54,835 nucleotides of DNA from Candidatus Gastranaerophilales bacterium (lineage in GTDB: Bacteria > Cyanobacteriota > Vampirovibrionia > Gastranaerophilales > Gastranaerophilaceae), in NCBI GenBank assembly GCA_944324905.1, contig CALUYB010000011.1:1-54835 (forward strand), written 5' to 3'. The translations under genes were made by a program, and so were the position numbers. Positions 10,322 to 52,835 of this stretch are shown here, in pieces (the first letter of the stretch is position 1; each line of letters begins with the position of its first letter). The notes under the pieces were generated by a model. The model saw only the letters and a program-made list of their open reading frames with translations, was not told where the DNA came from and made no database searches.

Positions 10322-10377
10322 ATTTTTCTTACGATATATACTTTATATATATAAGGTAGATATTGAGTAAGAAAAAT
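10322..10377. repeat. Inverted repeat reaching the CHAP gene start codon
   Basis: ATTTTTCTTAC (10322-10332) is exactly complementary to GTAAGAAAAAT (10367-10377), 34 bases apart. The right arm includes the first two bases of the ATG. If transcription begins before 10322 the hairpin would cover the start codon; a TATACT-like box inside the loop would instead leave the left arm out of the RNA. Confidence 0.5.
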
Positions 10378-11191
10378 GACAACAAGTATTTCAAATAGCG
10401 TTGCAATAGATACAAGTCATATGACCGGTTTTACCCTTGCAGACTACAAAAAAGAAATTAAAAAGGGTTTAAAAGGTGATGACAAAGAATTCTACCAAAA
10501 ACTGAAAGATCAAGATGTTGAGCGTTCTTTTGCTGCTTTTGATACCGATGGTAACGGCATTTTATCGGGCGAAGAAGCTATTGGCGTAAGCTCTGTCGGA
10601 TTTAACCAAAGAAAATTTTCGCAAGCGTTAAATGGCGGCGGGCTTGATGCTTATATACAAAAATTGTACAACAATATGGGCTCACTTGATACAAGTTCAC
10701 TTTCTTCGTTGCTTGGTACTTCAACAGGGGCTGCAGCAAACGTTAGTGGAACAAGTTCTTCTGCTGCAGTTAATTTTGCTCTTAAATATAGTGGCAAAAG
10801 TGCTGCCGAAATGTCAGGTTTGATGAGCTCGACAGGATTTCACTCAGGACAGTGGTGCGCGGATTTTGTTTATTATTGTCTTTCAAATGCAGGGCTTGTG
10901 CCTGAAGGATATGATTCAATAAATCATGCCTATTGCCCTTCTATTGCCCAGTGGGCAAGGCAAAATGGCAGAGCATTTAGTGATCCCAGTCAAGCAAAAC
11001 CTGGTGATTTGTTAATTATGAACTCTGAAGGCCATATTGGAATTGTAACAAAAGTGGATTCTGATGGCATTCATACAATTGAGGGCAATACGTCAAATGC
11101 AAGTGGAACTTATGATAGCCCCGGAGGTGGTGGCTGGGTGTGCGAAAAAGTTCGAGATTTTAGCGCTGTTTCAACATTTGTAAGGATATAA
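10376..11191 (+). CDS. EF-hand protein with C-terminal CHAP amidase/endopeptidase domain
   Basis: CHAP domains cut peptidoglycan as cysteine amidases or endopeptidases. This 271-residue protein has one canonical EF-hand loop (Asp56-Glu67, DTDGNGILSGEE), a Ser/Gly/Ala-rich linker (about 103-130) and a CHAP domain from about 132. The catalytic pair is probably Cys161 in WCADF and His220 in GHIGIV. No signal peptide is seen although the substrate is outside the membrane. A bidirectional terminator follows. It may remodel the cell's own wall or be an exported lytic factor; the sequence does not decide. Confidence 0.88.
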   Translation: MTTSISNSVAIDTSHMTGFTLADYKKEIKKGLKGDDKEFYQKLKDQDVERSFAAFDTDGNGILSGEEAIGVSSVGFNQRKFSQALNGGGLDAYIQKLYNNMGSLDTSSLSSLLGTSTGAAANVSGTSSSAAVNFALKYSGKSAAEMSGLMSSTGFHSGQWCADFVYYCLSNAGLVPEGYDSINHAYCPSIAQWARQNGRAFSDPSQAKPGDLLIMNSEGHIGIVTKVDSDGIHTIEGNTSNASGTYDSPGGGGWVCEKVRDFSAVSTFVRI

Positions 11192-11216
11192 AAAAGAGGG
11201 CTTAAGCCCTCTTTTT
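11191..11216. terminator. Bidirectional rho-independent terminator
   Basis: A GC-rich stem AGAGGGC/GCCCTCT with the loop TTAA is flanked by A-runs on the left and T-runs on the right. It lies exactly between the convergent CHAP and rubrerythrin genes and would work for both; it overlaps both stop codons. Confidence 0.92.
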
Positions 11217-11763
11217 AGTCGTAATTTTGTTCTACTACAAAAAAGTACGATTTAGGATGTGAACAAACTGGGCATGTTTCTATTGCATCGTTTCCATCGT
11301 ATCTAAAACCGCAGTTACCACATTCCCAAGTTACTTTTTGAGGTTTTTTAAATACTTTTTCTTCTTCAATATTTTGAAGCAGCTTTTTGTATCTTTCTTC
11401 ATGGTGTTTTTCTATGCCGGCAACTTTTTCAAAAAGAAAAGCTATTTTTTCAAAACCTTCTTCTTTGGCTTCTTTTGCGAATTGAGCATACATTTGTGTC
11501 CACTCGTAATTTTCGCCATTTGCCGCTTCTTTTAAGTTTTCCAAAGTATTGCCAATTGAACCGCCATTTAAAAGTTTAAACCAAATTTTAGCGTGCTCTT
11601 TTTCATTGTTTGCAGTTTCTTCAAAAACTTTTGAAATTTGTACATAGCCGTCTTTTTTAGCAGCTGAAGCAAAATATGTGTATTTGTTTCTTGCTCCTGA
11701 CTCTCCCAAAAACGCTTCAAGCAGATTTTTTTCTGTTTTTGTACCTTTTAAATCTTTTTCCAT
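11215..11763 (-). CDS. rbr: Rubrerythrin
   Basis: Rubrerythrin reduces hydrogen peroxide in the cytosol of anaerobes. The N-terminal four-helix diiron domain is seen in ESGARNKY and [10 protein letters not shown], and a second ExxH ligand set (EKHHEER) is near residue 120. The C-terminal rubredoxin domain has CGNCGFRY and CPVCSHP for one iron. The 182-residue length is typical. AGGAG precedes the ATG, and a perfect palindrome overlaps the promoter, as expected for a peroxide- or metal-responsive repressor site. Confidence 0.96.
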
Positions 11764-11777
11764 TTATCAACTCCTGT

Positions 11778-11806
11778 AAAATTGTATTATTCTAGAATAC
11801 AATTTT
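11778..11806. promoter_or_regulatory. Operator-like palindrome over the rubrerythrin promoter
   Basis: AAAATTGTATT (11778-11788) and AATACAATTTT (11796-11806) are perfect 11-base arms around a 7-base spacer. The palindrome covers the -10 box at 11794-11799. Position and architecture suit a Fur/PerR-type repressor, but the sequence is not an exact PerR box, so the protein that binds it is unknown. Confidence 0.7.
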
Positions 11807-11822
11807 ATTTGAATAATGTCAA
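11794..11822 (-). promoter_or_regulatory. Rubrerythrin promoter
   Basis: The minus strand has a consensus TTGACA (11817-11822), a 17-base spacer and TATTCT (11794-11799), upstream of an AGGAG ribosome site. The -10 box lies inside the palindrome, so a bound repressor would block RNA polymerase. Confidence 0.75.
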
Positions 11823-11830
11823 AAAATATC

Positions 11831-11858
11831 TTGTACGCTTTTTATAATGTTATATAAT
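11831..11858 (+). promoter_or_regulatory. Promoter of the four-winged-helix regulator
   Basis: TTGTAC (11831-11836), a 16-base spacer and a perfect TATAAT (11853-11858) precede the ATG by 22 bases. No ribosome site is seen in the short leader. It is divergent from the rubrerythrin promoter with the two -35 boxes eight bases apart. Confidence 0.55.
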
Positions 11859-11880
11859 TAGAAAAACAAATGGTTTTATT

Positions 11881-13020
11881 ATGGCAAGAATTCAAATTTC
11901 TCAAATAAATTTTCCTGTACCTGATTTTAAATGTTCTCTACTATCTAAGGAAAAGGTTGTTCTAAATTGGCTTATAAAGTGGCTTGATTATGCAATTGGG
12001 GCAAATATTATTCAGTACGGAGATTTTTTGCCAGAAAAATTTAAGTTGGCAAAATACCTAAATGTCAGCACAGGCACGCTACAAAATGCCATAAGACAGG
12101 CAGAGGATATGGGTTATTTTGAATCAAGGCAATCTGTAGGTACTGTTATTAAAAACCCAAATTCTAAAGATAATATCTTTGAAAAAACAGGCTCAAAAAA
12201 AGACAAAGCCGTTTTATTGATTAAAAAGTATATTTTAGATACAAACCTCAAACTAGGGCAAGCACTTCCCAGCGTAAAAGAACTTTCGCGCATGGTTGGT
12301 TTAGGTGACAGTACGATTCGCCTTGCTCTTGAAACGCTTGTATCTTTACAAGTTTTAAAAGTAGTGCCGCTAAAAGTCAACAAATCAAAATGGGTATACA
12401 GTTCTTTAATTTCGCCCGATACTGTACAGTTTAAGGGTGTTAATTTAGTTAGCTCTATTGCAAAAAAAATCAAAAACTTTATTTCACAAAATTGCAATGT
12501 GGGCGATAAAATTCCTTCAAACAGTTTTTTTGCAAAAGAGTTTAATATTAGTATAAGAACGGTAAACGAGGCTGCAAGAATTTTAAACGAGCAGAAAATA
12601 ATACTTTCGCGTCGTGGTCGTTACGGCACAATTTATATAAACAGTCCTGAAAAAATCAAAATGCAAAAAAATAGAGAAGAAAAATCGCTTTTTATGAGCA
12701 AAGGAAAAACGCAACCTTTGCAAGAGAACTACCTTTATTGCTGGGAAAAGACGCTCAATGCCCTTAAAAAATATATCATTCAAAATCATCAATCAGGCGA
12801 GAAAATCCCCCCAATGCGCGAGCTTGCAAGTATTTTAAATGTCAGTACAAATACAATCAAGAGGGCGGTTTCAATTCTTTGCGAGGAGGGCTATTTGATA
12901 GCGCAAAGAGGCAAATACGGCGGAGTATTTATTTTGGAAATTCCTCAAGAAGAAAGGAATTCCGAAGCCTTCACTTGGCTTGCCCTGAACCCCGATGTAG
13001 TAAAAATAAAGCAAAATTAA
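11881..13020 (+). CDS. Regulator of four tandem GntR-type winged helices without an effector domain
   Basis: The 379-residue protein appears to be four GntR-like winged helix-turn-helix units, at about 27-92, 109-175, 188-255 and 287-354. Each repeats the order KxxI..G..LP...LA..L.VS..T...A...L...G. Typical examples are EKIPPMRELASILNVSTNT in unit 4 and QALPSVKELSRMVGLGDST in unit 2. Units 3 and 4 end in RRGRYGTIYI and QRGKYGGVFI, the beta wing. No FCD, UTRA or aminotransferase effector domain follows, which is unusual. It diverges from rubrerythrin, so control of that gene is possible but unproven. Its stop abuts that of lepA. Confidence 0.85.
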   Translation: MARIQISQINFPVPDFKCSLLSKEKVVLNWLIKWLDYAIGANIIQYGDFLPEKFKLAKYLNVSTGTLQNAIRQAEDMGYFESRQSVGTVIKNPNSKDNIFEKTGSKKDKAVLLIKKYILDTNLKLGQALPSVKELSRMVGLGDSTIRLALETLVSLQVLKVVPLKVNKSKWVYSSLISPDTVQFKGVNLVSSIAKKIKNFISQNCNVGDKIPSNSFFAKEFNISIRTVNEAARILNEQKIILSRRGRYGTIYINSPEKIKMQKNREEKSLFMSKGKTQPLQENYLYCWEKTLNALKKYIIQNHQSGEKIPPMRELASILNVSTNTIKRAVSILCEEGYLIAQRGKYGGVFILEIPQEERNSEAFTWLALNPDVVKIKQN

Positions 13021-51686: not shown

Positions 51687-52835
51687 ATGTTAAAAATTTT
51701 CGCATTTTCTAATAAAGTTAACAATAATACGGTACTAAATAAAGCTAATACAACTTTTTACAGCAATCCTTTCTCTTTTTCTGTAAAGTTGAATTCTCTT
51801 TCAAAAGATGAAGTTTCCTTTACATCCAGAAAAAAATTCCAAGAAAAAGCGCAGCTTCAGCCCCAAGCTATTGTCCAGACTTCTCGTGCCGGGGAAAAAG
51901 ACTTAAAAGATAAAGAAAGAACAATTACAAATGGTCTTGCACATTCAATATACAGACAGGCAGATTCTAATACCATACAGTTAAAAAGTGTTTTAAATAA
52001 AGCTTTTTATCCATATATACAAAAAAGAGGATATTGTGACAACAAACATCCTATACTTAAGCTTGAATATCGCACAAAAGGTGCAAGTTCTTTAAGGGAA
52101 AAGGCAAGTTCAAAACATATCCATACAAAAGAAGGTGTAATTGTAAATCTGCAGGACTTGTCTGGAGCAAGAATTATACTCGGTAGCAATCAAAAGGGTA
52201 GTGCCGATATTGTTATAGATAAACTTGCTGAAGTCGTCAAAGATGGTAAATTAAAAATTGTAGAAATTGAAAACCATACTCCTGCTGATAAAAAGTATCA
52301 GTATGCAAGCCAAACAAAATTACATAAACTTGCAAAAGCATCTTCTGATAAATTTGGTGCATTTGTATCAGAACACATCACAAGAAATGAAACCGGTTAT
52401 ATTGCTATTCATTTAACGGTCGAATTTCCTGATGGCTTGAGGGGTGAAATTCAAATACTTGGTCGCGATGTTGCAATATTTAAAGAACTGGAAGATTTGC
52501 CATACAAAATTTTGCAAGGGAAAAGTGTAAAACCTGAATATGCTGAAATTGTTGAAATTTTTAAACCACTTACACCGGTTAGAAATAACCCTTTTGACCC
52601 TGAAAATATAGAAAAGGCAAAACTAAGACAAGAATTTAGCGCCTACACTGCTGCTGCATATAAGCATGAACGCGATAAAATGCCTGTTAGTGCAACAAGC
52701 AAAAAGGTTTCCTCTTTCCTTTCTTTGGATGAATTTTCAAAAATGTCAAAAAGAAAAATCCATTTGCCTAAAGAGGTTGATTTTAATAATTTATATAAAT
52801 TAAAAATCAAAGCTGACAGGCTGGCTGAAAAATAA
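51687..52835 (+). CDS. Stand-alone RelA/SpoT-like nucleotidyltransferase domain protein
   Basis: RelA/SpoT enzymes make (p)ppGpp alarmones; related toxins pyrophosphorylate other nucleotides or tRNA. The 382-residue protein has synthetase-like blocks: RTKGASSLREKASSK (129-143), LQDLSGARIIL (155-165) and ETGYIAIHL with GLRGEIQIL (235-258). No hydrolase HD, TGS or ACT domain is seen. Residues 1-75 are a non-conserved extension with DEVSFTSRKKF (41-51); residues about 280-382 form a helical tail. AAAGG precedes ATG 51687. Substrate is uncertain. No antitoxin-like gene is adjacent. Confidence 0.75.
   Translation: MLKIFAFSNKVNNNTVLNKANTTFYSNPFSFSVKLNSLSKDEVSFTSRKKFQEKAQLQPQAIVQTSRAGEKDLKDKERTITNGLAHSIYRQADSNTIQLKSVLNKAFYPYIQKRGYCDNKHPILKLEYRTKGASSLREKASSKHIHTKEGVIVNLQDLSGARIILGSNQKGSADIVIDKLAEVVKDGKLKIVEIENHTPADKKYQYASQTKLHKLAKASSDKFGAFVSEHITRNETGYIAIHLTVEFPDGLRGEIQILGRDVAIFKELEDLPYKILQGKSVKPEYAEIVEIFKPLTPVRNNPFDPENIEKAKLRQEFSAYTAAAYKHERDKMPVSATSKKVSSFLSLDEFSKMSKRKIHLPKEVDFNNLYKLKIKADRLAEK

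Follow-up and report, generated by a model that had tools for sequence, protein, structure and literature searches.

The perfect inverted repeat that overlaps the −10 hexamer of the rubrerythrin promoter in a Candidatus Gastranaerophilales genome is present as described, and as far as could be seen it is probably incidental and not a real operator. The region is probably an ordinary sigma-70-type rubrerythrin promoter; the mirror image of its −10, seen in two sister species, would be a product of chance or of a recent change. The window, i.e., the whole stretch of DNA analysed (54,835 nucleotides, positions 1 to 54,835 of contig CALUYB010000011.1), was compared with the corresponding regions of a set of 15 genomes of the genus (Candidatus Gastranaerophilales), in which the genome of the window is G000.

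The rubrerythrin gene (11215..11763, minus strand) encodes a protein of 182 aa that scores over cut-off for PF02915 and PF21349 and reaches 254.8 bits against NF045767 (cut-off 200). It is preceded by a Shine-Dalgarno-like AGGAGT (11770..11775, minus strand), read from the sequence and similar in the alignment of relatives, and by a minus-strand promoter, TTGACA-N17-TATTCT, with the −35 at 11822–11817 and the −10 at 11799–11794. Judged as a sigma-70 promoter (TTGACA-like −35, spacer of 16–18 bases, TATAAT-like −10), the region agrees in all three elements and, with the downstream AGGAG, resembles a housekeeping promoter, from which nothing notable sets it apart (TATTCT matches the consensus in four of six positions); all 11 orthologous regions retain it. 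The promoter had been proposed from the window alone and was borne out by these regions, since the hexamers are conserved throughout: the −35 is kept in all 11 and the −10 reads TATTCT in ten and TATGCT in one. The promoters were located by the pattern AG[AC]ATA-N17-TGTCAA, and the invariance of the −35 and of the spacing follows from all 11 matching that pattern; a free alignment of ten of the 11 agrees with the pattern-located set.

The inverted repeat, TAAAATTGTATT-ATTCTAG-AATACAATTTTA, occupies 11777–11807 (no strand assigned) with arms of 12 bp (11777–11788 and 11796–11807) around a 7-base spacer. The preliminary description was right about a perfect palindrome with this spacer and about its overlap with the −10, but the arms are 12 bp and not 11 bp long, and the dyad is not seated exactly on the hexamer: its centre, at 11792, is just downstream of the −10, which shares four bases with the right arm and two with the spacer. 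Under a first-order Markov model of the same composition, with spacers of 0–12 and draws of 400,000 bases each, a 117-bp stretch should contain arms of at least 11 bp 0.0064–0.0094 times and arms of at least 12 bp 0.0009–0.0026 times, the latter figures depending on few events; for this particular motif at up to three mismatches, 0.02 occurrences were expected and one was found. Across the intergenic DNA of the window (23 stretches, 3336 bases; gaps of at least 30 bases between ORFs of at least 100 aa) the expectations are 0.18 (arms of at least 11 bp) and 0.075 (at least 12 bp), and by simple scaling a few repeats of this kind would arise by chance in 1.66 Mb. The palindrome is unlikely for a single region, and the surprise is weak once every region that could have been picked is counted.

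Perfect repeats whose arms reach 11 bp or more occur at two further places in the window, 11191 and 25910. The first of these (11191–11216), a perfect dyad of 13 bp in which each arm has five G/C, is terminator-like in both directions and located between the convergent ends of the rubrerythrin gene and the gene at 10376–11191. A terminator function for the palindrome at the promoter was rejected, as it has one G or C per arm, and an RNA hairpin in the rubrerythrin leader was rejected by reasoning, because a transcript from the presumed start would include the left arm but not the right.

Rubrerythrin is divergent from a gene for a GntR-type protein in 11 of the 15 genus genomes, corresponding to 11 of the 14 with the GntR gene (in G010, divergence was inferred from a GntR gene start at the end of the rubrerythrin contig). 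The two genes do not adjoin in G002, G007, and G011, and G013 (75% complete) lacks the GntR gene. The palindrome had been expected to recur upstream of rubrerythrin in related genomes, and for the most part it does not. Among the ten relatives with the gene pair, one (the sister G005) has the full palindrome, so that it is found in two of 11 promoters, three have 6-bp arms (G003, G009, and G014, one clade), and six have neither (G001, G004, G006, G008, G010, and G012); in G010, the right arm is unchanged and the left arm is absent.

Conservation is concentrated in the right arm, with a mean column majority of 0.92 (0.90 after dropping four columns fixed or nearly fixed by the search pattern), compared to 0.73 for both the left arm and the spacer. 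Within the left arm, the four inner columns reach 9–11 of 11, a fair degree of conservation that may reflect the start site. Under an operator, both half sites should be retained with the gene pair and changes in one arm should be compensated in the other; arms of at least 6 bp are found in 5/11 and none in 6/11, and arm covariation (11 rows, nine distinct) is not above shuffles, with 61.1% of positions paired against 63.6% in shuffled data. A single cell of the pair count over the 11 rows is changed on both arm sides, a G-U. Pairing at the true register (61%) exceeds that at registers slid by 1–3 (32–48%), as is usual when the structure comes from one of the rows.

In a tree of the GntR proteins, in which three inner forks with low support were drawn open, G000 and G005 form one clade and G003, G009, and G014 another, and G012, G004, and G006, all with broken palindromes, join G000 and G005 (fork 82/87). 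Palindrome states are clustered on this tree, requiring five changes, a number equally low in 3 of 200 shuffles; the broken palindromes need four. A single gain of a dyad in each of two clades and the repeated loss of an old dyad would both fit this distribution.

Beyond the rubrerythrin promoters, the palindrome does not behave as a regulon motif. The core TGTATT-N7-AATACA has 13 forward matches across the 15 genus genomes, compared to four for the reversed control, of which five are at rubrerythrin promoters and eight are inside ORFs (mechanical list of ORFs of at least 70 aa), leaving no extra-ORF copy elsewhere in these genomes. The longer form, at up to two mismatches, occurs 56 times in the own genome against 48 for its control, and its three one-mismatch places (L003, L004, and L002, which coincides with L110) are inside ORFs. 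The operator role proposed for the palindrome is thus not supported, with six of ten relatives lacking even 6-bp arms, no covariation, and no other copy outside ORFs.

Together these observations suggest a rubrerythrin promoter in back-to-back arrangement with that of the GntR gene. Selection would retain both rubrerythrin hexamers (−35 and −10) and a few bases adjacent to the −10. The retained block would be the right arm, such that one arm is conserved because that arm is the promoter. The left arm, over and just past the presumed transcription start, would be free to drift, and its mirroring of the right arm in two sister species could be chance in AT-rich DNA or a recent change; no regulator would be using the dyad. 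Several points count against a plain promoter. A perfect dyad over the −10 and the start is the classic position of a repressor site, the chance of a 12-bp dyad in this region alone is about 0.001–0.003, two separate clades share TGTATT-N7-AATACA, and the motif exceeds its control (13 to 4), an excess that comes mainly from the rubrerythrin promoters. The conservation beyond the −10 is also more than a bare promoter demands.

The GntR-type protein (379 aa; 11881..13020, plus strand) is a candidate binder. Its description as a regulator with four winged helices was confirmed by four stretches matching PF00392 and by four helix-helix-helix-strand-strand modules in a structure model, the relative placement of which is unreliable because of the low confidence of the model (mean pLDDT 71.6, pTM 0.35). 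No effector domain was present among the best 25 of 29 Pfam families. Across the order, 50 of the 58 genomes searched (own genome included) encode the protein, usually once per genome; within the genus, 14 of 15 do. A search of the literature with narrow phrases returned no paper on proteins with several GntR domains, and for Gastranaerophilales and transcription none of the matches listed was on gene regulation by title. Its gene has a promoter/leader element, TGTTATATAATTANAAAAACAAAYGG (11848..11873, plus strand; TATAAT at 11853–11858), that is a candidate site of autoregulation; 12 of the 14 genus members carry TGTTATATAATTA without a mismatch, and the own genome has one other place, at three mismatches. 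The gene in G002 and G007 keeps this element without an adjacent rubrerythrin gene and without the dyad, and so does not require the dyad for its own regulation.

A role of the dyad as a lineage-specific operator for this protein is rather unlikely; in that case the protein would repress rubrerythrin in G000 and G005, and perhaps also in G003, G009, and G014, by binding TTGTATT/AATACAA at the −10 and start. In favour of such a role, 11 of the 14 genus members that have the GntR gene keep the pair divergent, the protein has four winged helices, and a single local target would fit the absence of other motif copies. According to PMC6746942, GntR operators are dyads and those of the YtrA type are long with distant half sites, and the rubrerythrin dyad is similarly long and over a start region beside a GntR-domain gene, but it differs in that it is not conserved with the GntR gene and in that the neighbour has four GntR domains. 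Against such an operator are the six of 11 members that keep the gene pair without even 6-bp arms, the covariation at the level of shuffles, and the GntR promoter element kept in G002 and G007 where neither the dyad nor an adjacent rubrerythrin gene occurs. It is distinctly unlikely that the conserved right arm alone (AAAANTGTATTCT on the minus strand) is a putative half site or monomer site of a regulator, to which the left arm would have been added as a second half in some species. Conservation does extend past the −10 hexamer, with four consecutive T in 11/11 and the C and the A of TGTATTCT in 10/11 each, but a TG next to the −10 and a spacer A-tract also occur in plain promoters. Very improbable is a bidirectional promoter, in which the mirrored −10, TATTAT (11785–11790, plus strand; by reading, 5/6 to TATAAT), would start a transcript toward the GntR gene. 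The presumed starts, at ~11787 (minus) and ~11797 (plus), are by reading 10 bp apart, inside the 7–25 bp window given for divergent starts of bidirectional promoters in PMC10268837, but the most frequent distance given there is 18 bp. Further, a promoter scan listed no plus-strand promoter at this site, the GntR gene has a conserved promoter element of its own, and such hexamers are common in AT-rich DNA.

The suspicion of PerR control raised in the preliminary description was reasonable, as predicted PerR boxes differ between lineages and a predicted PerR-box palindrome overlaps a −10 at Geobacter perR-rbr-roo, according to PMC545781. All 15 genomes of the genus have a single Fur-family gene. 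For the protein of the own genome, the closest solved structure is B. subtilis PerR (2fe3) and the best NCBIfam PerR model scores 105.5 bits, under its cut-off of 180. It has an aspartate in the column of PerR Asp85, and it is likely, though not certain, to be PerR. The PerR-like gene (L094:1501-2433, contig C1 of G000) has a box, TGATAATTGTTATCA, upstream and lies ahead of a gene whose rubrerythrin-like product has a rubredoxin-like part at its N-terminus (models below cut-offs). The genus box, TGATAATNNTTATCA, is exact at the PerR-like gene in 12 of 15 genomes, with deviations in G003, G013, and G002. With at most one mismatch, it occurs at 12 places in the own genome (nine forward and seven reverse rows, compared to one and three for the control); only the place before perR reads as a promoter, and the other 11 are in or at the start of ORFs in a mechanical ORF list, including the place at 52285, which gives the highest box-matrix score of the window (17.0).

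At rubrerythrin, a PerR/Fur box was rejected across the 11 promoters on account of low matrix scores and the lack of an exact box (0/11). The promoters divergent from the GntR gene score −7.0 to 2.3 (G014 and G003 at 2.3), compared to 11.6 to 26.2 for the boxes. The window's rubrerythrin promoter region reaches −3.7 with no exact box, in agreement with the earlier statement that the palindrome is not a standard PerR box. Like a PerR box, the dyad is AT-rich and lies over a −10 before a rubrerythrin gene, but compared to the genus box and the B. subtilis consensus that PMC545781 quotes (TTATAATNATTATAA) it has another half site, a 7-base spacer, and a low genus-matrix score. It is extremely improbable that the palindrome is a PerR/Fur operator of unusual form; the variability of PerR boxes between lineages and the Geobacter example speak for it, and the conserved box that the PerR-like gene carries of its own, together with the scores and the absence of the exact box, speaks against it.

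In five genomes from four other genera (G015, G039, G040, G044, and G045), a rubrerythrin of the same type follows a Fur-family gene on the same strand at a distance of no more than 250 bases, and therefore PerR control of rubrerythrin may be ancestral. That control may have been lost here once rubrerythrin came to lie beside the GntR gene. Two of these genomes, which belong to one further genus, have at L102 (G045) and L103 (G040) a long dyad, CTCTTAATAAGAATAATTCTTATTAAGAG, upstream of the Fur-family gene, with rubrerythrin directly behind the gene.

It is quite improbable that the protein with four GntR helices and no effector domain took rubrerythrin out of the PerR regulon in the genus and represses it through a fast-evolving dyad at the −10, with species-specific versions of the site. 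If true, peroxide defence in these uncultured gut bacteria would have been rewired from PerR to a multi-winged-helix regulator. If an ordinary sigma-70-type promoter is the right explanation, as is probable, the case shows that in AT-rich DNA a perfect 12-bp dyad can overlie a −10 without being an operator.
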